DNA of 31,062 nucleotides from a virus. Made by a program: the position numbers and the translations under genes. Positions 1 to 25,212 of this stretch are shown here, in pieces; position 1 is the first letter of the stretch, and each line of letters begins with the position of its first letter. The notes under the pieces were generated by a model. That model was not told the origin of the DNA, did not search any database, and was given only the letters and a program-made list of their open reading frames with translations. The DNA is taken from the IMG/VR virus record IMGVR_UViG_3300048930_001387, positions 1 through 31,062 of that record. One strand, written 5' to 3'.

Positions 1-41
1 TTACATGCGAGGGGTTCGGGGTTCGAATCCCCGTCTGCCCA
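1..41 (+). tRNA. 3' end of a tRNA gene (partial, 5' part outside the window)
   Basis: Bases 17-33 form a T-arm: a 5-bp stem CGGGG/CCCCG closes the loop TTCGAAT. Bases 34-40 (TCTGCCC) would be the 3' strand of the acceptor stem, with A41 as discriminator. CCA is not encoded. The anticodon lies outside the window, so the amino acid cannot be named. The prophage starts directly downstream, as expected for integration into the 3' end of a tRNA gene. Confidence 0.8.
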
Positions 42-45
42 TTAC
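1..45. other. Candidate left attachment site (attL core) in the tRNA 3' end
   Basis: The tRNA 3' end overlaps the end of the integrase gene, the usual arrangement when a phage recombines within a tRNA gene. The identity block cannot be delimited because the other copy (attR) is not in this window. The assignment is inferred from the tRNA, the adjacent tyrosine integrase and the prophage gene content. Confidence 0.5.
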
Positions 46-1494
46 AGGCTTCAAGTGTCCATCTGGGTCGGGCGTCGACGCGCTGGCGAGGGATCCCTTC
101 CCCTGTGCCTGCTGCATCCGACGCTCGAGATCGCTGACCAGACCTGGCGCGCTGTCGAATACCACTCCGGCGGCGTGGGGCCTGGTCTGGTCAGCGGAGT
201 CGAGCCGATTTGTGCGGTTGGGCTCCGCCGGAGTGGTTGCACGATGATGCCCACGCAGGACCTCGGATGTCAAGCGGTTATGGGATTCAATCGAGTTATC
301 CACAGACCTTGCACGTTTTAATCCCCCCTTCATCTGGGGCCACAGGGGCGGCAAGAGCGACAGAGCGGCGGCTTGTTCGGTAAGCGGCGGGTCGTAGTAG
401 CGGTGCTCGACGCGCCCGGCGTGGCGCATCAGGAAGTCGACCATCTTCTCGGGAACGCCCTGTGCTGTCAGCGTCGTCGAGAACCACTTGCGGGCGCTGT
501 GCGGCGAGAAGATGCGTCCGCGATAGTCTTCGTGGGCAATGCCGGCGCGGCCCTCGTCCTTCGGCCAGGTGTGCTTGCTCGGCGCGATGGGGAAGACCAG
601 GTCTGTTGGCCCCGCGGGCTTGAGGCTAGCCGCCTCGCGGTCGCGATCGACGTCGGCAAGGTGCGCGCGGAGCATCGGGACAAGCTCGGGCGCGAGCGCG
701 ACGTACTGATCGCGGTGCGTCTTGTTGATGTCCTGCGTCCAATGGATCTGCGGGATGGACTCCTCGAGGTGCAGGTGCTCACGCCGCCATCGCGTGGGCT
801 CCTCGAGCCGGCACGCGGCCGTGAAGAGCGTGTGCCAGTAGAGCGGGCGGTTGCCCTTGCACTTCGCGTCGGTCGTGTGCTTGCACCAAGCCTGCAGGAT
901 GAGCGCCGCTGCCTCCTCGGTCGTCGCGGCTCGTGAACCTTCCCCGCCATCGTGCACCGCACGCTCGGCACGCTCGAGCGGGTCGTCGTCGACGAGGCGG
1001 TTGGTGCGTGCCCACGCCGTGAACGAGCGGAAGACCGAGAGGTTCCGGTTGTACGTCGCTCCCGACCAATCACCCGAAGCACGGAAGGCGCCGAGCCAGC
1101 CCGTGACGGCGTCGTGCGTGACGTCCTCGACCGAGTGCCAGCCCGCGTCGGACGTCGCACGCCGGAAGATGGCGCGATAGTCCGTAAGCGTTCTCGGCGA
1201 GTGGCCGAGGCTTCGCATGTGAGAGAGCCATCGCTCGATCGCTTGGTGCAGATCCGTCTGCGCAGCGCTGATCGATCCGACGACGGGCTGGAACGAGGGA
1301 GCATCCATGCTCACGCCGGGAGTGGTGACGGCGGAGCGCATCGATTCGAGTTGACCACACAACGAGGGGAAACGCAACGCCATCGACACCAGTATCGCGC
1401 CGGTTGTTGGTTCCCGGACTATGAGTTCGAGCGCAGCCGGCGGTGCATCACGTCGTATCTCCCACCGGCTGTCGTCGTCTCGAACAAGGTGCAT
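1..1494 (-). CDS. int: Tyrosine-family phage integrase
   Basis: This site-specific recombinase would integrate and excise the prophage at the adjacent tRNA. From the ATG at 1494 it has 497 residues. An N-terminal SAM-like core-binding domain lies at about residues 80-165. The catalytic domain shows Arg229 (CRLEE), an HxxR box at His332-Arg335, His358 (RHAG) and the nucleophile Tyr366 or Tyr367 (RYYDP). The frame stays open upstream to a TTG at 1623, but no convincing ribosome site selects it. Two further internal ATGs, at 1383 and nearby, also precede the core domain. The last dozen codons are the antisense of the tRNA T-arm and acceptor stem, with the TAA at 1-3, so the C-terminus is encoded by the attachment core and would differ in the free phage. 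Residues 370-490 are a long tail of low similarity to known integrases. Family assignment is secure; the exact start is not. Confidence 0.92.
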   Translation of the reverse strand: MHLVRDDDSRWEIRRDAPPAALELIVREPTTGAILVSMALRFPSLCGQLESMRSAVTTPGVSMDAPSFQPVVGSISAAQTDLHQAIERWLSHMRSLGHSPRTLTDYRAIFRRATSDAGWHSVEDVTHDAVTGWLGAFRASGDWSGATYNRNLSVFRSFTAWARTNRLVDDDPLERAERAVHDGGEGSRAATTEEAAALILQAWCKHTTDAKCKGNRPLYWHTLFTAACRLEEPTRWRREHLHLEESIPQIHWTQDINKTHRDQYVALAPELVPMLRAHLADVDRDREAASLKPAGPTDLVFPIAPSKHTWPKDEGRAGIAHEDYRGRIFSPHSARKWFSTTLTAQGVPEKMVDFLMRHAGRVEHRYYDPPLTEQAAALSLLPPLWPQMKGGLKRARSVDNSIESHNRLTSEVLRGHHRATTPAEPNRTNRLDSADQTRPHAAGVVFDSAPGLVSDLERRMQQAQGKGSLASASTPDPDGHLKPVMGRRGFEPRTPRM

Positions 1495-1637
1495 ACGCCC
1501 CCCGGCGTTCGCGCGGCAGATGCGCGGCACGACGTTGTACCGCGCACGTCCATCAGCGGCGACACCGGGGAGAGCCAATATGTGCCACAGCGGCACGCTC
1601 TTTGAAGTGACGCATCGGGCCAACCGCTAGTAGCCCA

Positions 1638-1940
1638 GTGCACGAAGACACCATCGCGGTCATTGTTCTGAAGGAGCTGGCGCGGCGTCAGATGACGATC
1701 ACGGATCTCAGTCGCCTCGCCAACGTCGATCGATCCGTCCTCGGTCGATGGCTCTCTAGTCGAAGATCAATGCGAGTGCGCGAGCTCCTTCGTGTGATGC
1801 AGGTCCTGCACCTGGTCATCGTGCACGAAAGGGAGCTTCATGGCGAAACAGGTTCATCGCGTCGCAACCCCCCTGCGTCGGTTGCTCGTTCCGCTCGCGC
1901 GGCTTGCCCAGGATCCGTCGAACCTCCGCGTGCACGATGA
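1638..1940 (+). CDS. Small helix-turn-helix protein, possible Cro/excisionase-type regulator
   Basis: The GTG at 1638 opens a 100-residue frame. Residues 9-47 read as a helix-turn-helix (LARRQMTITDLSRLANVDRS then a recognition-like helix), resembling XRE/Cro-type DNA-binding domains. It diverges from the integrase, a common place for a regulator of integration or lysogeny, so control of the int-to-HTH interval is plausible but not shown. About 101 nt of its 3' end overlap the next gene in another frame. The overlapped tail is rich in Arg, Ala and Pro and has no domain character, so the functional part probably ends near residue 66. No close family is recognised beyond the fold. Confidence 0.55.
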   Translation: MHEDTIAVIVLKELARRQMTITDLSRLANVDRSVLGRWLSSRRSMRVRELLRVMQVLHLVIVHERELHGETGSSRRNPPASVARSARAACPGSVEPPRAR

Positions 1941-2445
1941 TCGCTCGTTCGACGCGATCGCCACAAGCCTGCGCAGGTTTGGCCAGCAGAAGCCCATCGT
2001 GGTCGACGCACGCGGCGTGGTGATCGCCGGCAACGGCACGCTCGAGGCGGCTCGCCGGCTGGGGTGGACCCACATCGCCGCGGTGCCGTCGTCGCTCGAT
2101 GGTGCTGAGCGCGTGGCGTACTCGATCGCGGACAACAGGACCTCCGAGCTCTCTCGCTGGGACACCAAGGCCCTGCAGGCAGTGCTCGACGCGTTCCCCA
2201 AGGACGCGCTCGCCGGCACGGGGTTCACGCTCGATGATCTTGCCGAGCTCGCAGGACGCGAGCCCGCAGTGATCGAGGACGAGGCGCCGACGCCCCTTCC
2301 CTTCGCGGTGACCAAGCTCAGTGACCAATGGGAGCTCGGCGAGCACCAGCTTCTCTGCGGCAACTCCAGGAGCTCCGCCGACGTCGCGACGCTGATGGTC
2401 CGACCGCGCGGCTCTCGTGGCAACCGATCCGCCCTACCTCGTTGA
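1840..2445 (+). CDS. ParB/Spo0J-like N-terminal part of a frameshifted DNA methyltransferase
   Basis: This 201-residue frame holds a ParB-like nuclease-type domain: residues 30-65 include IATSLRRFGQQKPIVVD followed by the VVIAGNGTLEAARRLG box. Phage adenine methyltransferases commonly carry this fold at their N-terminus. It continues into the start of the methylase module (WELGEHQLLCGNS, near residue 170), then leaves frame just before the catalytic motif. Skipping the single C at 2401 joins it to the downstream frame as MVDRAALVATDPPY. The ATG at 1840 has a good ribosome site (AGGGAG at 1829-1834). The parent enzyme would therefore be one protein of about 550 residues. The break is a one-base insertion, a sequencing error or a +1 shift site; the sequence alone cannot decide. 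Confidence 0.8.
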   Translation: MAKQVHRVATPLRRLLVPLARLAQDPSNLRVHDDRSFDAIATSLRRFGQQKPIVVDARGVVIAGNGTLEAARRLGWTHIAAVPSSLDGAERVAYSIADNRTSELSRWDTKALQAVLDAFPKDALAGTGFTLDDLAELAGREPAVIEDEAPTPLPFAVTKLSDQWELGEHQLLCGNSRSSADVATLMVRPRGSRGNRSALPR

Positions 2446-3514
2446 CTACACCGGCGAGCGACTTGGAAGCGGCAAGGACTGGACCCAGGTCTACGACGAG
2501 AAGGCGATGGGTGATCCCGAGGAGTTCTTCACCGATGTGTTCTCTCGAGTACTCGACGTCCTGGCCCCGCATGCCGCGGTCTACTGCTGGCACGCGTTCA
2601 AACGCTATCCGCTGCTGCAATCGGTCTGGAGGAAGCTGGGCCTGCTCGATCACCAGCAGGTGATCTGGGTCAAGCCCGTCGCGGTCGTCGGTCGAAGCCT
2701 CTACCACTGGCAGCACGAGCCGTGCCTGGTCGGTTGGCGCGAGGGCTCGATGCCGAAGCTCGATCGCAAGGAGGTCACCAGCAGCGTCGTCGTGATCAAC
2801 GCCGGCATGGTGCACGGATCCGAGGCCGCCGACGTGTGGATCCAAGACTGGGAAGGGCGCAAGCGTCCGGCCGGCAACGAGCATCCAACGCAGAAGCCCG
2901 TCGAGCTGTTCGCCAGGCCGATGCGCAAGCACACCAAGGAAGGCGCAATCTGCTTCGAGCCGTTCAGCGGATCCGGTTCTCAGCTCATTGCAGCCGAGCA
3001 GCTCAAGCGTCGCGTGCGAGCGATGGAGCTCGAGCCGGTCTTCGTCGACGTCGCGGTGCGCCGGTGGCAAGCGTTCACGGGCCAGGCCGCAACGCTCGCT
3101 GGTGATGGTCGCACCTGGGACGAGATCGCGTCGGCGCGTCGGCGTAGAACGAAGGCATGCCCACCAAGCCCCGACGCCCCTGTGCCCACCCAGGATGCCC
3201 ATCGCTCACCGAAGGCCGCTACTGCCAAGCGCACTTCCGAGAAAGCCCCAAGCGGCCGGCCTGGCCGACGTCGAAAGGATCGGCCTCAAGCCGCGGCTAC
3301 GGATCGAAGTGGCGAGAGCTCCGCGCTCGAATCCTCGCCCGCGATCCCGTCTGCAAGGTCTGTCGAGCAGCGCCGTCGACGTGCGTCGACCACATCAGGC
3401 CCAAGGCCGAAGGCGGCGGCGAAGGGGAAGCGAACCTCCGAGGGATCTGCAGGCCCTGCCACGATCGCAAGAGCTCAAGGGAAGGGGCCAAAGGCAAAGC
3501 GGCCCGGCGCGTAA
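2417..3514 (+). CDS. DNA N6-adenine (or N4-cytosine) methyltransferase, catalytic part, downstream of a frameshift
   Basis: The catalytic motif DPPY is encoded at 2426-2437, and the SAM-binding motif FEPFSGSGS comes later, around 2956-2982. This catalytic-first order is typical of beta-class amino-methyltransferases. The homologous part ends near 3150 (ARRRR). The frame then runs on for about 120 residues of Lys, Arg, Pro and Ala-rich sequence, lying over the HNH gene in another frame. The GTG at 2417 lies at the DPPY motif itself and lacks the preceding beta strand, so it is not a convincing independent start; the real N-terminus is in the upstream frame from 1840. The enzyme probably marks phage DNA against host restriction or acts as an orphan methylase; no partner restriction gene is visible apart from the neighbouring HNH nuclease, which is more likely a packaging factor. 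Confidence 0.85.
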   Translation: MATDPPYLVDYTGERLGSGKDWTQVYDEKAMGDPEEFFTDVFSRVLDVLAPHAAVYCWHAFKRYPLLQSVWRKLGLLDHQQVIWVKPVAVVGRSLYHWQHEPCLVGWREGSMPKLDRKEVTSSVVVINAGMVHGSEAADVWIQDWEGRKRPAGNEHPTQKPVELFARPMRKHTKEGAICFEPFSGSGSQLIAAEQLKRRVRAMELEPVFVDVAVRRWQAFTGQAATLAGDGRTWDEIASARRRRTKACPPSPDAPVPTQDAHRSPKAATAKRTSEKAPSGRPGRRRKDRPQAAATDRSGESSALESSPAIPSARSVEQRRRRASTTSGPRPKAAAKGKRTSEGSAGPATIARAQGKGPKAKRPGA

Positions 3515-4412: not shown

Positions 4413-4973
4413 ATGGGACTTCGTGGACCGCCGCCAAAGCCGAGCGCGTTGAAAGCAGCCGCGGGGAATCCGGGCAAGCGTCGTCTCAATGAGCACGAGC
4501 CCATACCGCCGAGCGGAGACATCAAGCCGCCGCGGACTCTCACGAAGCTCGGGCTCGAGATCTGGAACGAAGTCGCGCCGGTGTGCATTGCGATGCGCAC
4601 GCTCACCACCGCTGACCGCATGACGTTCGCGCGCTACTGCGATCTGTACGCGCGGTTCCTCGAGCTGCGCCAGCTCGTGTGGTCGCAAGGCGCACTCGGC
4701 AGCACGTACCACGTCAAGGACGAGAAGGGCAAGCTCCGCTACATCGCGGAGATTCCGCAGGCCGCGGAGATCCGCCAGGTCGCTCGCATGCTCGTTGCGC
4801 TCGAGGATCGGTTCGGACTCAGCGCCGCTGCTCGCGCGCGTCTGCAGGTTCAGCCGGCGTCGCCGGCGGCCGTGATCGCATCGGCCTCTTCGGCTCAGTC
4901 ACCAGTCGATGCGGACGCTCGCGCCTTCTTCGCAGCCGGCGGGCGCTCGAGGCAGCCACCGCTCGTAGGGTGA
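4413..4973 (+). CDS. terS: Terminase small subunit, P27 family
   Basis: The 186-residue protein opens with the P27-type signature GPPPKPSALKAAAGNPGKR, followed by an acidic-proline linker (NEHEPIPPSGD) and a helical region (residues 45-135) that would form the DNA-binding and ring-forming part. The C-terminal 50 residues are Ala/Ser-rich and probably flexible. Small terminases recognise the packaging site and regulate the large subunit at the portal. The ATG at 4413 has a strong ribosome site (GAGGAGG at 4403-4409). The large terminase gene follows after 3 bases. Confidence 0.93.
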   Translation: MGLRGPPPKPSALKAAAGNPGKRRLNEHEPIPPSGDIKPPRTLTKLGLEIWNEVAPVCIAMRTLTTADRMTFARYCDLYARFLELRQLVWSQGALGSTYHVKDEKGKLRYIAEIPQAAEIRQVARMLVALEDRFGLSAAARARLQVQPASPAAVIASASSAQSPVDADARAFFAAGGRSRQPPLVG

Positions 4974-6677: not shown

Positions 6678-8015
6678 ATGAGCACGATCATCACCGGCCC
6701 CGGCATTGAGCAGTCCTCAAGCGAGAAGCGGAACATCGAGGATCCGAACAAGCCGCTCAACATGAGCCAGCTCGCCGAGCTGTTCAACGGCGGGCCCGGC
6801 CGGCGCAACGTCACGCCGCGGCGTTCGATGCGGATCGCAGCGGTATGGGCGTGCGTGGGAATCCTCGCCGAGACCATCGCCCGCATCCCGTTCCACCTGT
6901 ACAAGGCGAGAGAGGGCGGCCGTGATCGCGTGCGGGATCACCCGGTCTCACAGCTCCTCTCGGTGCGACCGAATCCCGAGAACAGTCCGTACACGCTCAA
7001 GACGTCGCTGGTTGCGAACCGTGCACTCTGGGGCCGCGGGCACGCGGAGATCGTCCGCAATGCGCGAGGCCTCGTGCAGGAGATCATCCCCATCGAGACC
7101 GAGCGGGTTCGCATTGGGCGCAGCAACGGCCAGCGGGTCTACGAGGTGCGCCGCGGGGCGGACGTCGTCGTGCTCCTGCCGCGAGACATCGTGCACGTGC
7201 CGGGACTGTCCTTCGACGGCCTCGAGGATCTCTCGGTCATTGGTCACATGCGGCGATCGCTCGGCGGTGCAGAGGCGATCGAGGAGGCAGGCTCTAGGGT
7301 CATGGAGAACGGGATGAAGCCCAGCGGTGCGCTGAAGCATCCGGGCAAGCTCGGGGATCAGGCGTTCGCGAGGTTGCAGGCAAGCTTTGCGTTGCAGTAC
7401 GGCGGCGCGGAGAATGTCGGAAAGACGATGATCTTTGAGGAGGGCATGGACTGGACCTCGTTCGGGTCGATGAACTTCGTCGACGCCCAGTTTATCCAGC
7501 AGCGAGAGTTCACGATTGAGGACATCGCTCGCATGTTCCGCGTGCCGCCGCACAAGATCGGGCACCTCGCGCGATCGACGAACAACAACATCGAGCAGCA
7601 GTCCCTGGACTTCCTCGGCGACACGCTCGACCCGTTGTTGATCGCGATCGAGGAGGAGCTCAACTGGAAGCTGCTGACCGAGGAGGAGCGTGCCGCCGGC
7701 ATCTACATCGAGGCCGCACGCCAGGCGGTCGTGCAGATGGATGCCAACGCTCGCGGCGCGCTGTACGAGCGGATGATCCGCGTCGGTGCGATGAACGCCG
7801 ACCAGGTCGCGGCGCGGGAGAACCTGCCGGCACTGCCTGACAAGCGCGGCGAGGTGTACACCCAGGCGTCGAGCCAGCAGCCCATGCCGACTCCGGGGCA
7901 AGCGGACGAGCTGGTGATCGCTCGCATCAAGAGTGGGGCGAAGTCGCCGGTGAACCCGTCGCCGGATCCTGCGAGCCCCTCGAATCAGGACCCCGCGAAC
8001 GACGCCAAGGCCTGA
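6678..8015 (+). CDS. Portal protein, HK97 family
   Basis: The 445-residue protein forms the dodecameric portal ring at one capsid vertex through which DNA passes. Family signatures are the N-terminal AAVWACVGILAETIARIPFH segment (about residues 54-73), the MKPSGALKHPGKL region, and the clip/wing boxes with FTIEDIARMFRVPPHKIG and NNNIEQQSLDF (about residues 278-317). The last 70 residues are Pro-rich and likely disordered. It lies between the large terminase and the prohead protease, the standard order. No ribosome site is seen before the ATG; the TAGGGT box six bases upstream suggests leaderless initiation. Confidence 0.95.
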   Translation: MSTIITGPGIEQSSSEKRNIEDPNKPLNMSQLAELFNGGPGRRNVTPRRSMRIAAVWACVGILAETIARIPFHLYKAREGGRDRVRDHPVSQLLSVRPNPENSPYTLKTSLVANRALWGRGHAEIVRNARGLVQEIIPIETERVRIGRSNGQRVYEVRRGADVVVLLPRDIVHVPGLSFDGLEDLSVIGHMRRSLGGAEAIEEAGSRVMENGMKPSGALKHPGKLGDQAFARLQASFALQYGGAENVGKTMIFEEGMDWTSFGSMNFVDAQFIQQREFTIEDIARMFRVPPHKIGHLARSTNNNIEQQSLDFLGDTLDPLLIAIEEELNWKLLTEEERAAGIYIEAARQAVVQMDANARGALYERMIRVGAMNADQVAARENLPALPDKRGEVYTQASSQQPMPTPGQADELVIARIKSGAKSPVNPSPDPASPSNQDPANDAKA

Positions 8016-15374: not shown

Positions 15375-17351
15375 ATGTCTGAAGCAATCGGCGCAGTGCG
15401 GATCGACATTACCGCCAACATGGCGACGCTAGTGCGCTCCTTGAAGGAAGCCGACAAAGAGCTCAAGGTCATGCAGACGCAGATGAAGCGTCTAAGCGAC
15501 CAGGCCGCGAAGTCGTTTGATCAGATGACCAAGGGGGCCCAGGCCTTCGAGCGCGTCGGCAAGGACCTCACCAAGAGCGTCACTCTCCCTCTGGTAGCCT
15601 TCGCCGCGGCGGCGATCAAGGCGGCGGACCCGGCAGGCAAGTTCACCGAGCGGCTCAAGGACATGGGGATCGAGGCCCTTGTCACTTTGCAGCCGATTGG
15701 CAACGCGCTCATCTCCGCGTTCGACGCCTTCGAACCCACGATTCGGCGAGCTATCTCCGTCGTCGGATTACTCGCTGACAAGTTCGGTGCACTCAATCCA
15801 GAGACCCAGCGAATGGTCATCATCTCCGGCGCGGCGGCGGCGGCGCTTGGCCCGCTGATCATTGCGGGCGCGGCAACCGCCAAGGTCGTCGGCATCGCTG
15901 TCGCCGGCGTCAAGAACCTGGTCAGTGTTGCGAAGATCTTCTCGTTCGTCGTTTCGCCACCGATGCTCGTGGCGATCGCGGCCATCGGCGCCGCGCTGAT
16001 TGGCCTCGAGCTCGGCACGTACTTCTACGACGAGTTCAAGATCGTGCAGTTGGCGGCCGCAGCTGCGATCTCGTTTGCCGAGGAACAGTTCATTTACCTA
16101 GACGCGGCGTGGAAGGGCGTCGTTGCTGCGATCCGCGAGGCGTGGGATTCAACGATGGGGTTCGTGCAGGAGCGACTGGCCGCCGTGATTGAGGACGGCT
16201 CAGAAGCGCTCGCGTATGTCGGCCTCATAAGCGAGGAGCAGGAGAGGTCGGCAAAGGACTCGGCCGCGAAGATGCGGGCGGCATTCGGCAATTTCTCGTA
16301 CAAGGACGAGGTCGCACGCATCAACAAGGAGATGGCGGCAGGCCTCGAAGAGGTGCGCCAGACCTACCAGCGCACGGTTGAGCAGATCGAGAAAGAGTTC
16401 AACGGGCAGGATCGCAAGGGGCAGGACCCGCTGCAGCACCTCGGCAGCAGCTTCTCGAAGATCGGCGATCAGATCGAGCCGTTGCTCCAGCCGCTGCGGG
16501 ACAAGTTCGGCGCGTTCCTGGCGGAGGTCGACAAGTACGCCGCTGGCTCGCAGGATCGGGCGGCCGCGTGGAAGAGCGACGCGGACAGCGTGAAGGAGAT
16601 GACCAAGGCAACGGCCGATGCCAAGAAGGCCATGGAGCAGATGCAGAGCGAGGCAGAGCGGCTCCGCTTCGAGATCTACCCGGAGGAGAAGCTCCAGGCG
16701 GACATCGACCGGGTCTACGAGCTCGCCGCTGCATTCCCTGAGATCCTCGGGGCGCCGGAAGTTCAGAAAGCTATCTCGATGCTCACTGCGGATTACGAGA
16801 AGGCCATCAACAAGATCAAGAAGAAGACGGATACGTGGCAAGACAAGTTTCGCAACATGTTCAAGGACTTTGGTCGGGATGCGTCGAGGACCTTTGCCGA
16901 CTTCGCCACAGGTGCCGATGTTGCCTTTGACCAGGTGCTTCTGAGCTGGACGCGGATGGCGATTGAGATGGCGGCCCAGCAGTGGGTGTTTGGTCCGGCG
17001 TTCGGCGCGGTCGGCGAAAAGCTGTTCGGACCTGCGCCCGCGGCAGCGACCGCGCCGGTGGCGCTCAAGGCCAGCTCACCCGTGGCGATGGCGGCAACCT
17101 CTCCGCTCGACCACATGAGGCGCAGCTTCGGGTCCGACGGGCTGACGGCGGGCGGCGGTGTTTCGGTCCAGATCTACGACCAGCGCAGCGGCGGCCAGGC
17201 AGTGCAAACATCGGAGTCCCGCGGACCTGATGGCGAGAAGATGCTCCGCGTCCTGATTCGCGACGAGGTTGGGCAGATGGCCGGTGACGGCGGGATGGAT
17301 CGGGTTCTCGGGCCAACCTACGGCACACGCCGGCGTCCGAGAACGCGGTAG
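15375..17351 (+). CDS. Tape measure protein
   Basis: The 658-residue protein sets tail length and resides inside the tube. It begins with an amphipathic coiled-coil region (residues 20-60), continues with hydrophobic segments at about 150-225 (including AAAAALGPLIIAGAATAKVV), and has two further helical coils at 300-350 and 400-500. Near the end, DQVLLSWTRMAIEMAAQQWVFGPAFG is a common tape measure motif. At the usual figure of about 1.5 angstroms per residue the tail would be near 100 nm long. A ribosome site GGAGGG precedes the ATG. The gene directly follows the chaperones, which is diagnostic. Confidence 0.93.
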   Translation: MSEAIGAVRIDITANMATLVRSLKEADKELKVMQTQMKRLSDQAAKSFDQMTKGAQAFERVGKDLTKSVTLPLVAFAAAAIKAADPAGKFTERLKDMGIEALVTLQPIGNALISAFDAFEPTIRRAISVVGLLADKFGALNPETQRMVIISGAAAAALGPLIIAGAATAKVVGIAVAGVKNLVSVAKIFSFVVSPPMLVAIAAIGAALIGLELGTYFYDEFKIVQLAAAAAISFAEEQFIYLDAAWKGVVAAIREAWDSTMGFVQERLAAVIEDGSEALAYVGLISEEQERSAKDSAAKMRAAFGNFSYKDEVARINKEMAAGLEEVRQTYQRTVEQIEKEFNGQDRKGQDPLQHLGSSFSKIGDQIEPLLQPLRDKFGAFLAEVDKYAAGSQDRAAAWKSDADSVKEMTKATADAKKAMEQMQSEAERLRFEIYPEEKLQADIDRVYELAAAFPEILGAPEVQKAISMLTADYEKAINKIKKKTDTWQDKFRNMFKDFGRDASRTFADFATGADVAFDQVLLSWTRMAIEMAAQQWVFGPAFGAVGEKLFGPAPAAATAPVALKASSPVAMAATSPLDHMRRSFGSDGLTAGGGVSVQIYDQRSGGQAVQTSESRGPDGEKMLRVLIRDEVGQMAGDGGMDRVLGPTYGTRRRPRTR

Positions 17352-17378
17352 TCGCGTTACGTTCCCTCCGGTTGGTGG

Positions 17379-17384
17379 TATGCT
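17379..17384 (+). promoter_or_regulatory. Promoter-like TATGCT box for the lipoprotein cargo cassette
   Basis: GGTATGCT lies between the tape measure stop and the lipoprotein ATG at 17409. A start about seven bases on gives a short leader with GGAGG. The same octamer precedes the candidate RNA at 20122. Confidence 0.4.
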
Positions 17385-17408
17385 TGGCGACCACTCCGGA
17401 GGATCTCA

Positions 17409-17944
17409 TGAAGCTCACCACCGTTGCGTTCGCGTGTCTCACGGCGTCAATGCTTGGCGGTTGCGCTGGATCAGATCTAAACCCAATTCATCGTTCTGTC
17501 GCGTTCAACGAAGCCGAGTACATCGGTAGCGACGCGGTTGGCACGGGATCTGTCACTGGACAGGCGTTCCTCGTCACGCTTGGCGGCACTGTGAAGTATG
17601 GCGCAGGTCGCACGGTCTGCCTGGATCCGGTGACTTCTTACTCCACGCAGTGGTTCGATAACGCGGTCGTTGCGTCGCGGGCGATGAAGTCCGGCGATGA
17701 ACGAGCAGGCAAGTACAGGCGGTCCACAATTGCTGACGGGGAGGGACGATTCAAGTTCAAGGGATTGCCGGCAGGCGACTACTACGCGACGTGTCATATC
17801 ACCTGGTTCATCGACGCAATCACCGAAGTTGGTGGCACAGCTCACGCGAAGGTGACCGTTGTTGAGGGGCAGAACACAGAGGCGGTTCTCACAGAGCCCC
17901 TCGGCTCAATGAGGAAGACAGAGGGTAATGGACCTCGAAGGTGA
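17409..17944 (+). CDS. Lipoprotein with a carboxypeptidase-regulatory-like domain (cargo gene)
   Basis: The 178-residue precursor begins with a short signal peptide (MKLTTVAFACLTASMLGGC) whose lipobox LGGC places the lipidated cysteine at residue 19. The mature part has a beta-sandwich pattern: VTGQAFLVTLGGTVKYGAG, then GRFKFKGLPAGDYYATCHIT and a closing VTVVEG strand, like small Ig/carboxypeptidase-regulatory domains. It is not a standard tail protein and separates the tape measure from the minor tail genes. Its own TATGCT box and GGAGG site suggest a separately expressed moron. Prophage lipoproteins of this kind may alter the host surface or block superinfection; that is inference. Its stop overlaps the next start by 17 bases. 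Confidence 0.75.
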
Positions 17945-18521
17945 GACCTTCGAGCGTCGACACAACGATCAGGGGTGGATCATGGGTACCACGGTGGATC
18001 CAGAAGATTACGTGTTTCATGCTGTCGTCGAGGGGCTCAACGGCAAGACGGCCCGCGGCACCAAAAGGCTCGATGTCTTCCGTCGCCTACGAGAAGATGA
18101 TCCGCTGCTGCTTGTTCTCGATGATCGCGACGGGAAGGGCCGTGCATCGAGAGTTCTCGTGTACACACTTGATGGAGAGGACATCGGTCATGTTGAAAGC
18201 GAGTTCGCCCGTGGCGCCGCGCGCGGACTGAAGCGACTGGCCGTATACGAGGTGACCGTGCTCGACACGACGCCAAGCCACGGCGAGGACGAGCTGGTGA
18301 TTGATGCCGTCGCGATAGCTGCGTCAGACTCAAGAACCTCGCGAGACGATCGAAAGGCGGCGAAGCAGATCCTGAAGCGATACGCGAGCATCGACCATCC
18401 GTGGGCTAAGTGGCGTTCGACAGCTCCGCTTCCAGAGCAAAAGAGCCAAGGAGGCTTCTGCGGCTGCGTGATGCTCCTGGCGGCGGCTCTTGGCATCGCG
18501 ATGTACTTTGTTCTCCGATGA
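17928..18521 (+). CDS. Membrane-anchored HIRAN-like protein (cargo gene)
   Basis: The 197-residue protein has an N-terminal globular part and a C-terminal hydrophobic segment (about residues 176-196, GFCGCVMLLAAALGIAMYFV) preceded by Lys and Gln, consistent with a tail anchor. Residues 28-110 resemble the HIRAN fold: FHAVVEG, RLREDDPLLLVLDD, VLVYTLDGEDIGHV then a Gly/Ala helix. HIRAN domains bind DNA ends or stalled forks in other proteins, yet here the domain would be tethered to a membrane. The ATG at 17928 overlaps the lipoprotein gene; 17982 is an alternative start. With the lipoprotein it makes a two-gene cassette that interrupts the tail operon. The HIRAN call is by eye and moderate. 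Confidence 0.6.
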   Translation: MDLEGETFERRHNDQGWIMGTTVDPEDYVFHAVVEGLNGKTARGTKRLDVFRRLREDDPLLLVLDDRDGKGRASRVLVYTLDGEDIGHVESEFARGAARGLKRLAVYEVTVLDTTPSHGEDELVIDAVAIAASDSRTSRDDRKAAKQILKRYASIDHPWAKWRSTAPLPEQKSQGGFCGCVMLLAAALGIAMYFVLR

Positions 18522-18526
18522 CCCGG

Positions 18527-18532
18527 TAGTAT
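18527..18532 (+). promoter_or_regulatory. Promoter-like TAGTAT box before the tail-tip genes
   Basis: TAGTAT follows the cargo cassette stop by five bases. It is followed by a short GC-rich leader with GGAGG before the GTG at 18572, so it could restart late transcription after the cassette. Confidence 0.4.
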
Positions 18533-18571: not shown

Positions 18572-19498
18572 GTGGCAGACATCGTGTGGCCGGCTGGGTT
18601 GCCGCAGGCACCGTTGGTTCGCTCGCTCAGCGAAACGATGCAGGCGATCGCGATGCGCACCGAGATGGAGACCGGCCCGGCGAAGGTTCGCCGGCGCGTG
18701 ACGGCCGTGCCGCAGACGCTGGAGATCGAGCTCTCTCTCACGCGCAACCAGGTCGCACTCTTCCAGGAGTTCTGGACCAACTCCATCAAGCTGGGCGCGC
18801 TGGCGTTCGAGTGGAGGCACCCTCGCACCGGCGCAACCTGCGACATGCGGATCACGTCGACGCCGACCGCTCGACCCAAGGCGCCGCGGCAATCGGGCAC
18901 CGAGTACTGGTCGCTCTCGTTCGGGGTTGAGATCCTGCCCGTGCCGGCGGTCGTGATCCCTGGCGTGCAGTGCGTCTCGTTCTATGGCACAGGCGGCACG
19001 CCGGTCTTCGGCACGGACTCGTCGCTCTCTGTCGACCTGGCGTCGGCGTGTCGCACCGACACCACCCACTACAACGTCACGACGGTGACGCGCACGTTCG
19101 TGTTCGACGCGATCGTCAACGACGAGACCGATCAGCCGCTCTCGATCACCTGGAAGTTCACCAACGGCGACGGCACGAGCACGATCACCTGGCACCGTGA
19201 CGACGGCTGGTCCTGCAACATCATCCCGGAGCACTCGCCGGAGGTCTCCTGCGGCACCGACACCGACGTCCGCCCGGGCGAGCACAACGAGGCGACGGAC
19301 TTCCCCTACACCGCAAACACCAGCTGGGCCCAGGAGGTCCTCGAGCTCAAGTGGGCGGCTCCTGGTCAGACCGTGTTGAACGTGATCGAGCTCCTAGAGG
19401 CGACGGTCAGCTCCCCGAGCTGTGGCGAGCTCGGCGCCTCGACGCAGGGGTTCACGGTCTACGACGTCGTCGTCAGTGGCGGCGTCGGCGAGGCGTAG
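18572..19498 (+). CDS. Minor (distal) tail protein
   Basis: The 308-residue product starts at a GTG with GGAGG upstream. The N-terminal 130 residues (WPAGLPQAPLVRSLSETMQ, EMETGPAKVRRRVTA, EIELSLTRNQVALFQEFW, LAFEWRHPRTG) match a minor tail protein family seen in gram-negative lambda-like phages directly after the tape measure. The remaining 170 residues are Thr- and Cys-rich with a beta pattern, and form a phage-specific extension that I do not recognise. Location between tape measure and the DUF1833-type gene supports a role in the tail tip. Its TAG stop is part of a promoter-like box. Confidence 0.72.
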   Translation: MADIVWPAGLPQAPLVRSLSETMQAIAMRTEMETGPAKVRRRVTAVPQTLEIELSLTRNQVALFQEFWTNSIKLGALAFEWRHPRTGATCDMRITSTPTARPKAPRQSGTEYWSLSFGVEILPVPAVVIPGVQCVSFYGTGGTPVFGTDSSLSVDLASACRTDTTHYNVTTVTRTFVFDAIVNDETDQPLSITWKFTNGDGTSTITWHRDDGWSCNIIPEHSPEVSCGTDTDVRPGEHNEATDFPYTANTSWAQEVLELKWAAPGQTVLNVIELLEATVSSPSCGELGASTQGFTVYDVVVSGGVGEA

Positions 19499-20637: not shown

Positions 20638-23600
20638 ATGAGAGCGACCTCAACACCGGCGAGCTGGGCACGGCAGTACATCGGGATCCCGTTCACCATG
20701 AACGGACGCGAGCGGCGAGACGGCCTCGACTGCTGGGGCCTGGTCCGCCTCGTGTACGCCGAACGCCTGGGCATCATCCTCCCGAGCCATACCGACGGGT
20801 ACCAGGGGGTGGACGACTCCGAGGGCCTTCGCCGCGTTCTCGTCCACGAGACGCAGATTCGCCGAGCGTGGAGCCGCCGGGAGGTGGACGACATCCAGAT
20901 CGGCGACGTCGTCCAGCTCGACCTGTCGAAGCGTCCGCATGTGGGCGTCATGGTGAGCCGGGGCCAGATGCTCCACGCTTTCGAAGGGAGCGACTCGTGC
21001 ATCGAGCGGCTCGACGCGCCGCTCTGGGAACGGCGGGTCCGCGGCTTCTGGCGCTATGACGCTGGCGTGCAGGTCGCATCGCGGCCGAAGATCTTCGGGG
21101 AGCCCACGCGCCTCGAGCTACCGGCCGGCGCCTCGATCGATGAGATCCTTGTCGCCGCCGGCGTCAAGCCATCCCCGCACATCCGCGTCTTCGTCGGCGA
21201 TCGCCTGGTCCCGCGCGAGGTGTGGGCGCATGTGCGGCCGCGTGCGGGTCGCATGGTGAGCATCTCGTGCGTCGCCGCGGGCGGCGGCAATGGAGGAAAG
21301 ACGGCGCTCCGCATCATCGCGGCGATCGCCATCATCGCCGTCGCGTGGTACTTGGGACCCGTTGCCTATGGCGCGTACGCCGGCATCACGACAGCGGCGG
21401 CGGTTGGTACCCAGGGCGCGGCGATCGCCACCGGCATCATCGGCATGGCCGGCACGCTGCTTCTCTCGGCTCTCGCGCCGCCGCCGAAGTCACGCATCGG
21501 CGGCAACGACGCCGGCGTCTCGCCCGTGATCACCGGCGCGCGGAACGAGGCACGGCCGTTCGGCGTTGTCCCCGAGGTCCTGGGCGATCACGTCGTCGCC
21601 CCGCTCTACGCCGCACTCCCCTTCACCGAGATCGCCGGCGACGACCAATACCTCCGCCTGCTCTTCACGCCTGGCTATGGGCCTGTCGAGATCTCCGATC
21701 TCAAGATTGGCGACACCGCGCTCGACGAGTTCGAAGGCGTCGAGTACGAGTTCAGGCCCGGGCTTCCCGACGACGCGCCATGCGGGCTCTATTCGAACAC
21801 GATCCTCGAGGAGGGACTGTCGATCGAGCTCATCGCCGCCGACGGGTGGACGACGCGCACGACCAACACCAACGCGAGCGAGATCTCGATCGACGTCACC
21901 TGGCCCCAGGGCCTCGCCCACTACGGCGGCAACGGATCCCGCTCGAACCTCACCGTTGCCCTCGAGGTGCAGTACTCGCCGACTGGCGCTGGCACCTGGA
22001 CGTCGATCAACGTCGCATCGCCCAGCGAGCAGCGGACGATGGACTTCCTGTTCCGCACGCCGGAGGTAGTGCTCGGTGGGCAGGGATCGCACGGCACGAA
22101 GATCTCCTGGGGCGATGGTTTCCCCGATCCCAAGCCCGGGTATCTCCCGGCGAGCGGGTACTCCTGGGAGCTCACTGCCTGGCTCTACGCACCGACCGCT
22201 GGTGCTTACCAGTTCGGGCTCGACTCGAGCGACGGCGCGGAGGTGTGGGTCGACGGCCGGATCGTCGCGAGCTGGTATGGCTCGCACGCCACAGCCGGCG
22301 GCGGCACGCCCGACTTCGCGGCGCACGCAGGATCGATCACGCTGACCAAGGGCTATCACCAGCTCAAGGTCCGGATGGAGTGTCGCAGCGGCGGCGGCGC
22401 GATCGCGCTGGGATGGATCAAGCCCGGGGACGTCGCCTTTGAGATCGTGCCGGCGTCGAGGCTCAAGGGATCCGCCAACGGGAGCGGGTCGGCGAGGTAC
22501 CGCTGGTTCGAGACGTCGGTGTACACCAGCTCCATCGGGCTCACCTCGAACCGCGCGGAGCAGCTCCGTCGCTCGTTGGCCTGGGCGGTGGAGCCTGGTC
22601 AGTATGACGTGCGGGTTCGCCGCGTCACCGCCGACACGCCTTCGGACAGCGACGTCGACACCGTCTACTGGACGGCGCTTCGCACGATCCGCAACTCCGA
22701 TCCGATCAAGCTCAAGAACGTCGCGCGGATCGCGATGCGGATCAAGGCGACGGACCAGCTACAGGGCGTCGTCGACACGTTCAACTGTCGCGTGCGCCGC
22801 ATCATCCCCGACTGGGATGCAGAGACCGGCACGTGGATCACGCGCGCGACGTCGAACCCCGCGTCGTGCTATCGCAACGTTCTCCAGGGACCGGCGAACA
22901 AACGACCGCTCGCAGACGCCAGGATCGATCTGGCCACACTGCAGGACTGGCACGAACACTGCGAAGAGGAGGGCTTCAGCTACAACACGGTCCTGGACTC
23001 CACGGGCACGGTCTTCGATCGCCTGCAGGAGATCGCCGCAGCCGGCCGTGCGTCCTTCGGCATGCGCGATGGCAAGTACTCGGTGGTGATCGATCGACCG
23101 CAGACGGTTCCCGCCCAGCACCTCTCACCTCGAAACTCGTACGGGTTCCGCGGCCGCCGCGTCTTCCCCGAGCTCCCGCACGCGGTGCTCGTGCGCTTCG
23201 TGAACAAGGAGAACGGGTACCAGTTCGACGAACGCCCGGTGTACGACGATGGCCAGAGCGAGGAGACAGCAACCCTCTTCGAGTCGATGGAGCTCGCTGG
23301 CGTCACGAGTTGGGATGAAGCATGGAGGCACGGACGCTACCAGCTCGCGGCCGCGAAGCTGCGCCGCGAGGTGTACGAGCTGAGCTGCGACGCGGAGCAC
23401 CTGTCGGCGACGCGCGGAGACCTGGTCCTGGTGACGCACGACGTCATGCTGGTCGGCATCGCGAGCGGCCGCGTCGCTCATGTGGAGATCTCCGGTTCCG
23501 ACTGCATCGCGGTTCAGCTCGACGAGGAGATCGTGATGGAGGACGGGACGGACTACGTCGTCCGGTTCCGCCTCGAGGACGGCACCTCGCTCCTGTGCCC

Positions 23601-25212
23601 AGTGGTCACCGCGGCCGGCGCCTCGACGCGTTTGGAGTTCTCAACGCCGATCCCCACCGGCGATCCGCGTCCGAAGGTCGGAGATCTCGCCTTGTTCGGC
23701 GAGGCCGGGCTTGAGACGCGCGAGTGCGTCATCAAGGCGATCACGATGGATCGCGACCTGGCGGCGACGCTCACCCTCGTCGATCATGCCCCAGCGATTC
23801 ACGATGCCGACGTCGGCGAGATCCCCGCGTACGTCCCGGGCATCACCATCCCGCCGCTCTACCTCGATCGTCCTGCCGCGCCCGTGATCGAGTCGATCCG
23901 CAGCGACGACTACGTCATGATTCGCGACGCCGATGGAAGCTTGCGGCCGCGGATGGTCGTGACGCTCCTGCCGGCGAGCTCGAACCCGCCGAGGCCCACG
24001 CACTCGCAGCTGCGGATCCGCCTCAAGCCCGACGGCGGTGCGGATCCGGTTGGCCCGTGGCGGCACTTCCCGCTGCAGCCCATCGACGATCTCACGCTCG
24101 ACGCGGACCAGGTCGAGGAAGGCGCGACGTACCAGGTCGCGGTGCGCTACGCGACGGCCGCCGGCGTCACGAGCCTCTGGACAACGACCGAGCACACGAT
24201 CGTCGGGAAGGTCAACCCGCCGCCGGACGTCCAGGCGTTCGACGTCGTGCGCCTCGGCGACGGAACGCGGCGCTACACCTGGGACCTGGGCACGATCCCG
24301 CCCGACATCGCCGGCGTCGTGATCAGGTACGGGCCATCCGTCGCCGCGTGGGGCTCGCTCAGCCCGCTCCACACCGGGCTCCTCGAGGGCGCGTCGCCGA
24401 TTGAGCTCAACGTACCTCCGGCCGGCACGTGGTACTTCGCGATCAAGATGGTCGACACCTCCGGCAACGAGAGCGTCAACGCGCTGGGCATCACGCGCAC
24501 GCTCGGACCAGAGCGCCGCGAGGGCATTGCGTTCCTCGAGGACGCGAGGATCTCCGGATGGCCTGGCACAAAGACCGGCTGCTACGTCTCGAACGACACG
24601 TACCTCTGGAGCCAGGGCACGGAGACCTGGAGCACGCTGCCGGCGACGTGGGACGACTGGACGTCATGGACGATGGACCCAACGGACCCGATCGTCTACC
24701 AGCAGCAGGTCGACGTCGGCTACGTCTTCGACTTCTCGCCCTCGGTGTACATCTACGCCGACGGCGCCTCGATCACCGAGCTGCAGTACTCGACGGACGG
24801 TGCGACCTGGTCGGCGTGGGCGGTTGTCTCGAGCTTCCACGGCGTGACGATCCGCGCGAGGCACGTGCGGGTGCGAGCAACGGTGAGCAGCGCTGGATTG
24901 ACCACGGTCCCGGTGCTCCAGCAGCTGGTCCTCACGCTACGCGCCGAGACCAAGACGCACTCGATCGACAACCTCAACACGCTGGCCCTCGGCGGCACGA
25001 ACCGCATCGGGGTTGGCGATGTTCGCCTGCCGATCCCCGCCGGCGTCTTTGGCGTCATCCAGTCGGTGATGGTGAGCTTCAACGGAACCGGCGCGGGATG
25101 GACGTACGAGATCGTCGACAAGGACTGGCTGCTGGGCCCGCGGGTCCGCCTCTACAACGCCGCCGGCGAGCTCGCCGATGCGACGATCGACGCGACGATC
25201 CGAGGGCTCTAG
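20638..25212 (+). CDS. Giant tail-tip protein: NlpC/P60 peptidase, gpI-like segment and J-type hub with PA14-like domain
   Basis: The 1524-residue protein merges genes that are separate in lambda. Residues 1-140 form an NlpC/P60 peptidase with Cys32 (LDCWGLV), His101 (RPHVGV) and His113, probably cutting host peptidoglycan at entry. Residues 155-220 are a small beta-grasp-like segment and 221-281 a hydrophobic stretch, as in lambda gpI. The J-type hub follows (GARNEARPFGVVPEVLGDHVVAP-type region near residue 300). Residues 480-600 look like a PA14 domain (GYSWELTAWLYAPTAGAYQF, DSSDGAEVWVDGRIV, KGYHQLKVRMEC). After more hub sequence, Fn3-like modules span about 1080-1290, and a C-terminal receptor-binding part ends the protein. 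The ATG lies seven bases after a TAGTCT box, without ribosome site. The role is penetration and receptor contact. Confidence 0.9.
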   Translation: MRATSTPASWARQYIGIPFTMNGRERRDGLDCWGLVRLVYAERLGIILPSHTDGYQGVDDSEGLRRVLVHETQIRRAWSRREVDDIQIGDVVQLDLSKRPHVGVMVSRGQMLHAFEGSDSCIERLDAPLWERRVRGFWRYDAGVQVASRPKIFGEPTRLELPAGASIDEILVAAGVKPSPHIRVFVGDRLVPREVWAHVRPRAGRMVSISCVAAGGGNGGKTALRIIAAIAIIAVAWYLGPVAYGAYAGITTAAAVGTQGAAIATGIIGMAGTLLLSALAPPPKSRIGGNDAGVSPVITGARNEARPFGVVPEVLGDHVVAPLYAALPFTEIAGDDQYLRLLFTPGYGPVEISDLKIGDTALDEFEGVEYEFRPGLPDDAPCGLYSNTILEEGLSIELIAADGWTTRTTNTNASEISIDVTWPQGLAHYGGNGSRSNLTVALEVQYSPTGAGTWTSINVASPSEQRTMDFLFRTPEVVLGGQGSHGTKISWGDGFPDPKPGYLPASGYSWELTAWLYAPTAGAYQFGLDSSDGAEVWVDGRIVASWYGSHATAGGGTPDFAAHAGSITLTKGYHQLKVRMECRSGGGAIALGWIKPGDVAFEIVPASRLKGSANGSGSARYRWFETSVYTSSIGLTSNRAEQLRRSLAWAVEPGQYDVRVRRVTADTPSDSDVDTVYWTALRTIRNSDPIKLKNVARIAMRIKATDQLQGVVDTFNCRVRRIIPDWDAETGTWITRATSNPASCYRNVLQGPANKRPLADARIDLATLQDWHEHCEEEGFSYNTVLDSTGTVFDRLQEIAAAGRASFGMRDGKYSVVIDRPQTVPAQHLSPRNSYGFRGRRVFPELPHAVLVRFVNKENGYQFDERPVYDDGQSEETATLFESMELAGVTSWDEAWRHGRYQLAAAKLRREVYELSCDAEHLSATRGDLVLVTHDVMLVGIASGRVAHVEISGSDCIAVQLDEEIVMEDGTDYVVRFRLEDGTSLLCPVVTAAGASTRLEFSTPIPTGDPRPKVGDLALFGEAGLETRECVIKAITMDRDLAATLTLVDHAPAIHDADVGEIPAYVPGITIPPLYLDRPAAPVIESIRSDDYVMIRDADGSLRPRMVVTLLPASSNPPRPTHSQLRIRLKPDGGADPVGPWRHFPLQPIDDLTLDADQVEEGATYQVAVRYATAAGVTSLWTTTEHTIVGKVNPPPDVQAFDVVRLGDGTRRYTWDLGTIPPDIAGVVIRYGPSVAAWGSLSPLHTGLLEGASPIELNVPPAGTWYFAIKMVDTSGNESVNALGITRTLGPERREGIAFLEDARISGWPGTKTGCYVSNDTYLWSQGTETWSTLPATWDDWTSWTMDPTDPIVYQQQVDVGYVFDFSPSVYIYADGASITELQYSTDGATWSAWAVVSSFHGVTIRARHVRVRATVSSAGLTTVPVLQQLVLTLRAETKTHSIDNLNTLALGGTNRIGVGDVRLPIPAGVFGVIQSVMVSFNGTGAGWTYEIVDKDWLLGPRVRLYNAAGELADATIDATIRGL

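Follow-up and report, generated by a model that had tools for sequence, protein, structure and literature searches.

What do two small, overlapping genes do between the tape measure gene and the minor tail genes of a phage, and do they belong to the tail operon in more than position? The question is raised by IMG/VR virus record IMGVR_UViG_3300048930_001387, which was analysed over its whole length of 31,062 bases (hereafter the window). The phage is considered temperate because the window contains a tyrosine integrase gene (1..1623, minus strand; phrog_1, E 3.3e-22; Phage_int_SAM_1, E 1.1e-6), which reaches the window edge. The original prediction saw in the two genes a lysogenic-conversion or anti-phage unit, in which a surface lipoprotein and a membrane-tethered protein with a DNA-binding HIRAN fold would act on incoming DNA.

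The cassette and its neighbours

Directly upstream of the cassette lies the tape measure protein gene (15375..17351, plus strand; phrog_1533, E 4.6e-16). It is followed by an intergenic leader of 56 bases, as calculated from the coordinates (17352..17407, plus strand), by LIP (17408..17944, plus strand), which encodes a 178 amino acid lipoprotein of the PA1324 family (phrog_14789) with a transthyretin-like/CarboxypepD_reg-like domain, and by HIR (17928..18521, plus strand; 197 amino acids), whose start overlaps LIP by 17 bases. Downstream there is a virion structural gene (18572..19498, plus strand; phrog_384, E 2.2e-22), then a DUF1833/minor tail gene and a J-like gene. The predicted place of the cassette between tape measure and minor tail genes was confirmed by the two overlapping plus-strand ORFs found there and by the PHROGs and Pfam matches of the neighbours.

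The base composition of the cassette is 58-60% G+C. GC3 is 0.65 in LIP as well as in HIR, whereas it is 0.82-0.91 in the six other window genes measured. Extra DNA of foreign composition between genes that adjoin in a relative is one of the marks of a phage moron; the composition of the cassette does differ, and the search by flanking genes for relatives spanning the cassette site returned a single contig, which ends within the tape measure gene. The cassette DNA had no match in the phage collection. No factor-independent (intrinsic) terminator was found for the cassette by scanning, and the hairpin 3' of HIR is without a run of T residues and is no more stable than shuffled sequences (z -0.38).

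Two observations were made elsewhere in the window. The J-like tail protein (20638-25212) combines an N-terminal NlpC/P60 peptidase with an internal PA14/GLEYA match, an architecture that suggests a fusion protein of the tail tip in which the insert may bind carbohydrate. At 1840-3514 a ParB-like ORF adjoins an ORF for an N6/N4 DNA methyltransferase; both match neighbouring parts of phrog_498, as if one fused protein had been split in two.

LIP is a lipoprotein of the PA1324 family

The assignment of LIP to the PA1324 family is based on its matches to phrog_14789 (E 1.7e-37) and, over residues 32-161, to the PDB entries 1xpn and 3qec of PA1324 from P. aeruginosa (E about 1e-13; 6.6e-14 for 3qec). 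The only Pfam match, CarboxypepD_reg (E 0.0013), was below the cut-off. From these similarities the fold of LIP is expected to be transthyretin-like. The N terminus has a signal peptide and the lipobox LGGC, with Ala at position +2, and a lipobox was found in 24 of the 25 representative LIP proteins, so the predicted lipoprotein character is well borne out. Residue +2 of lipoproteins governs outer-membrane sorting, and because this residue is Ala, LIP most likely goes to the outer membrane. LIP and PA1324 share the sequence family, the lipobox and a mature domain of about 150 residues, but LIP is phage-borne in a tail operon, whereas PA1324-like genes can be cellular. Neither LIP nor HIR had a match in NCBIfam or in PADLOC, which has no model for either protein.

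Among the phage records, 18 of 50,697 contain a relative of LIP, 17 of them being from Pseudomonas and one from Pasteurella; the plasmid collection gave 35 of 72,556 records, and IMG/VR gave 47 loci. The genome scan added two loci in Pseudomonas and a single weak match in a planctomycete. The plasmids include an 89.7 kb E. coli and a 110.8 kb Klebsiella record (L006 and L007), in which the gene lies amid phage genes and which we infer to be phage-plasmids; further relatives are on Pseudomonas plasmids with no phage genes within the annotated stretch. One P. aeruginosa record shows a PA1324-like gene in a cellular setting, beside cyo genes and a gene for a TonB-dependent receptor. The family is therefore not solely phage-borne. 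The receptor is one for siderophores, with the PA1324-like gene lying two genes further on, which we mention as a lead only. The LIP-like ORF annotated in Pasteurella phage Pmp3 (L004) has no lipobox; a lipoprotein-like start lies just upstream of position 4932 in another frame, and we take the recorded start or frame to be wrong. We found no paper in the open-licence PMC literature that treats PA1324-like lipoproteins as prophage genes.

Location of the LIP relatives

In 40 of the 47 IMG/VR loci an ORF for a CI-like repressor lies within 3.5 kb of LIP, with the limits that many of the 47 differ little from a single P. aeruginosa type, and that the eight repressors of LIP loci from which the repressor model was built match by construction. 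Among the seven loci without a CI-like match, L053 has a different repressor upstream (phrog_769), and L055 shows the same stretch; L050 was left unassigned, and the other four (L042, L048, L049 and L019) are taken up below with the tail operons. The repressor gene is immediately followed by LIP in three annotated P. aeruginosa phages. In some loci the interval between repressor and LIP is occupied by other accessory genes: the BstA abortive-infection gene in L043 (6856-7770; phrog_6287, E 1e-103; PADLOC, E 1.5e-116), the candidate defence pair PDC-M24A/B (DUF6978, DUF1828) in L041 (6526-7787), and a YafO toxin gene in L045 (7336-7776); YafO was matched in L039, too. According to passages of PMC7067206, the region after the repressor is a common site of accessory loci, and the cI-bstA operon is highly expressed in lysogens.

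Besides the window, a few LIP relatives are in tail operons. In L042 the gene precedes J, and in L048 and L049 it precedes tape measure genes. The tail label of L019 is tentative: its tape-measure match is 8 kb upstream, and the two nearer neighbours had no PHROG match. In a tree of the 25 LIP proteins the five tail-located ones were not grouped (5 changes), with only one change forced by well supported branches.

In five loci (L043, L045, L046, L047 and L058) we noticed a second conserved lipoprotein-like gene, on the minus strand and convergent to LIP, about 500 bases past the start of the LIP match. The members scanned did not match any curated family above the cut-off.

A recurrent promoter element before LIP

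The TATGCT box that had been proposed as the cassette's own promoter is present at 17379-17384, as part of the extended -10 element TGGTATGCT (17376..17384, plus strand), from which transcription would start near 17391. This is the sole occurrence of TGNTATNNT on either strand of the 31 kb window, where 1.54 would be expected. The same kind of element recurs in the family: TGNTANNNT starts 28-45 bases before the start codon in 13 of the 25 representative LIP genes, i.e. in the window and in 12 of the 24 others, a position range and a pattern that were chosen after a first look at the leaders. Dinucleotide shuffling gave a mean of 0.46 and a maximum of 4 in 1000 runs, and among control ORFs of at least 100 amino acids in the LIP loci 4 of 370 had TGNTANNNT at the same place. 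The excess over shuffled sequences and control ORFs indicates that a promoter of its own commonly accompanies LIP. We conclude that this recurrent putative promoter is the strongest new support for the cassette being a separate unit; as for the own promoter expected of a phage moron, the sequence element found is the recurrent extended -10. The element is absent from 12 of the 25 representatives, the P. aeruginosa phage type among them, in which LIP is likely co-transcribed with the repressor gene. A sigma-70 scan requiring a -35 element did not detect a promoter at the cassette.

The second box of the original prediction, TAGTAT, which was thought to restart late transcription, does exist in the gap before the next tail gene (18527..18532, plus strand); it is a consensus match only, and no sigma-70 site was detected there by scanning. 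Boxes of these types are strongly depleted in the window, in which TATNNT was found 3 times versus 24.65 expected, and TANNAT twice versus 24.56 expected, one of the two being the TAGTAT box. Two of these five copies are in the two gaps flanking the cassette.

Structure of the LIP leader

RNA reading through from the tape measure gene is predicted to fold into a hairpin (CCTCCGG...CCGGAGG; 17365..17402, plus strand), in which CCTCCGG at 17365-17371 pairs with CCGGAGG, the Shine-Dalgarno sequence of LIP. The fold of 17340-17410 had a z score of -3.36, and one of 200 shuffled sequences was as good. In read-through RNA the pairing of the LIP Shine-Dalgarno sequence was 0.97, the highest among 18 window genes, whereas it was 0.36 in RNA starting near 17391, which is without the 5' arm of the hairpin. 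It is thus possible, on this folding model, that late read-through RNA silences LIP by hiding its Shine-Dalgarno sequence. When the folded stretch was cut to 60 upstream bases and about 12 of the gene, the z score was only -1.29, and the pairing varies between 0.19 and 0.86 across the LIP relatives. Because of these two results we regard the hairpin as a local, unproven feature; the mixed values in the relatives ruled out a hidden Shine-Dalgarno sequence as a trait of the LIP family.

The -10 element is spanned by a perfect 5-10-5 dyad, GTGGT-N10-ACCAC (17375..17394, no strand assigned). A 5-10-5 dyad over the -10 is found in four representatives (the window, L019 at 7965-7984, L042 and L048), as compared with 0.78 expected, and is absent from the other 21; it was noticed after the fact, with 10 being the best of 13 spacers tried. 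All four LIP leaders with the dyad are tail-located, L019 tentatively. The dyad may be an operator or an RNA hairpin. The window has no second exact, mismatch-free copy of it, and dyad-like patterns were in no clear excess over the control in the records of L019, L042, L048 and L049.

HIR: a membrane protein with a doubtful HIRAN domain

The view that HIR is a real gene rests on the length of its ORF, which was reached by 5 of 1000 shuffled sequences, on a fair Shine-Dalgarno sequence and on its membrane helix. GC3 was dropped as a proof, since it is 0.65 in both cassette genes. The predicted C-terminal membrane anchor was found as a hydrophobic segment at residues 178-196 (Kyte-Doolittle mean 2.36). 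No signal peptide was seen by eye. With a single C-terminal helix and no signal peptide, the N-terminal domain of HIR should face the cytoplasm.

The HIRAN-like domain of the original prediction is a weak call. HIRAN (PF08797) was the sole Pfam family to match HIR at E values up to 1, over residues of about 42-124, but with E 0.11 and 12.8 bits the match is below the gathering cut-off of 24.7 bits. For a closer comparison we used HIRAN models built from 27 of 29 sequences extracted from genomes, HIRAN proteins having been found in 31 of 398 genomes. HIR scored 7.7 bits with the full model (1 of 2000 shuffled sequences scored higher; hhalign probability 38.9), 6.0 bits with the model of subgroup A (one shuffled sequence higher), and 1.6 bits, within the range of shuffled sequences, with that of subgroup B. 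In the alignment the N-x-Y/H-D motif of the genome HIRAN proteins is replaced in HIR. The tyrosine of N-x-Y-D is, we presume, Y93 of HLTF. Y72 and Y93 of HLTF stack with the bound dinucleotide, as described in a passage of PMC4666394, and bacterial HIRAN domains occur in HipA-type toxin-antitoxin proteins, some of them without the DNA-binding motifs, according to a part of PMC8262856. AlphaFold2 runs without relatives on whole HIR and on residues 23-138 both had a mean pLDDT of 41.3, too poor for a fold search. HIR thus resembles the HIRAN proteins (HLTF, HipL, HipN) in a weak collinear match over about 75 residues, and differs from them in scoring below the cut-off, in the missing N-x-Y-D, in its membrane anchor and in having no relatives. 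On the sequence comparisons we give a HIRAN origin of HIR about an even chance. DNA binding by HIR is unsupported, since the match is sub-threshold and the motif is absent, and so is the idea of a DNA-sensing HIRAN protein.

No relatives of HIR were detected in IMG/VR or in the genome contigs by protein scans, or in phages and plasmids by tblastn. The matches listed in 24 of 398 genomes of one phylum (best E 0.001) fell on scattered short stretches of the query and were taken as chance. When the 60 LIP loci were searched by tblastn, the only HIR found was the window's own. The two genes had been expected to occur as neighbours elsewhere; as no other LIP locus carries a relative of HIR, LIP and HIR are not a conserved unit.

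Discussion

It is very probable that the cassette is accessory or lysogenic-conversion cargo. The fuller statement, that it is a moron cassette in which LIP has its own promoter, HIR is coupled to LIP and the envelope of the lysogen is changed, is one that we favour by a small measure. The original prediction of a lysogenic-conversion or anti-phage pair is supported for LIP, in view of the repressor in 40 of the 47 IMG/VR loci, the defence genes lying between in some of them and the recurrent promoter element, but not for the pair. We propose that LIP is transcribed from the extended -10 promoter, probably in lysogens in which the other tail genes are not expressed, and that HIR would be made by translational coupling to LIP. 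LIP would be exported and lipidated, most likely to the outer membrane, where its PA1324-like domain would alter the envelope. HIR would be tail-anchored in the inner membrane, its N-terminal domain facing the cytoplasm; we see it as an addition specific to this phage, and its HIRAN-like domain is without the known DNA-end motif.

Superinfection exclusion, to which we assign slightly less than an even chance, is our leading guess for the function of LIP because small phage lipoproteins are known to act in this way and because LIP relatives accompany defence genes. By analogy with T5 Llp, Cor and mEp Lpp, LIP might bind a receptor or a transporter from the periplasm and so exclude other phages. 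T5 Llp jams FhuA, as stated in a part of PMC9586334, and a passage of PMC11893012 describes mEp Lpp genes that exclude phages and are, like LIP, in the structural gene cluster. All of these are phage lipoproteins, but LIP is larger and PA1324-like, and its PDB matches, taken up to E 5, include no Llp chain; by sequence LIP falls outside the Llp family, Llp being the one compared.

The most serious competitor, which we think rather unlikely, is that LIP serves the fitness of the lysogen instead of defence: it would be a sugar or envelope binder like PA1324 that changes adhesion or biofilm, and would be spread by phages because it is helpful to the host. Such a role would agree with the name that the depositors gave to 3qec, putative carbohydrate binding protein, with the PA1324-like gene in a cellular neighbourhood and with the relatives on Pseudomonas plasmids that lack annotated phage genes nearby. 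It is harder to reconcile with the repressor-linked position of most IMG/VR copies, several with defence or toxin genes in between, in a seat that is known for exclusion genes. The suggestion that LIP and HIR form a two-part anti-phage unit, in which HIR would use its HIRAN domain to hold or detect incoming DNA at the membrane and LIP would work at the cell surface, is improbable in our view. The overlap of the two genes speaks for it, as do HIRAN being the only Pfam family of HIR and the result with the model of 27 genome proteins; the sub-threshold match, the absent N-x-Y-D, the 1.6 bits with the second subgroup model and the failure to find the pair together elsewhere speak against it.

Still less probable, and to be accepted only with great reluctance, is that the two cassette genes encode minor proteins of the virion or of its assembly and are transcribed solely with the late tail operon. 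Their position between tape measure and minor tail genes is what one would expect in that case. Against it we can set the lipoprotein signal of LIP and its relatives in immunity regions, the extended -10 before LIP, the deviating codon and base composition of the cassette, and the predicted hiding of the LIP Shine-Dalgarno sequence in read-through RNA.

Returning to the moron cassette, accessory phage cargo of this kind is well known, and it is the LIP family that seems to have been overlooked as a conversion gene. The accessory loci linked to cI include rexAB of lambda. Most LIP relatives hold the same seat downstream of the repressor as rexAB and the bstA gene of BTP1, one of them directly after BstA, whereas LIP of the window, placed in the tail operon, apparently relies on its own promoter. 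A more daring extension, which as a whole we consider a long shot, would see in the PA1324-like lipoproteins a widespread class of exclusion proteins of prophages that has been overlooked. With a transthyretin-like fold they would clamp outer-membrane transporters from the periplasm, and their genes, each with its own promoter, would move among repressor seats, tail operons and phage-plasmids. In the present phage LIP would have gained a partner in the inner membrane, derived from HIRAN, that raises a second barrier against incoming DNA, and LIP would be silenced in the read-through tail mRNA by its hidden ribosome site.

The LIP family is widespread and little studied, with PA1324 as its solved member; its phage copies lie by the repressor, in some cases with established or candidate defence genes close by, and are often preceded by the same type of promoter. 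The function of PA1324-like proteins, be it phage exclusion or a change of the lysogen envelope, thereby becomes directly testable in P. aeruginosa.
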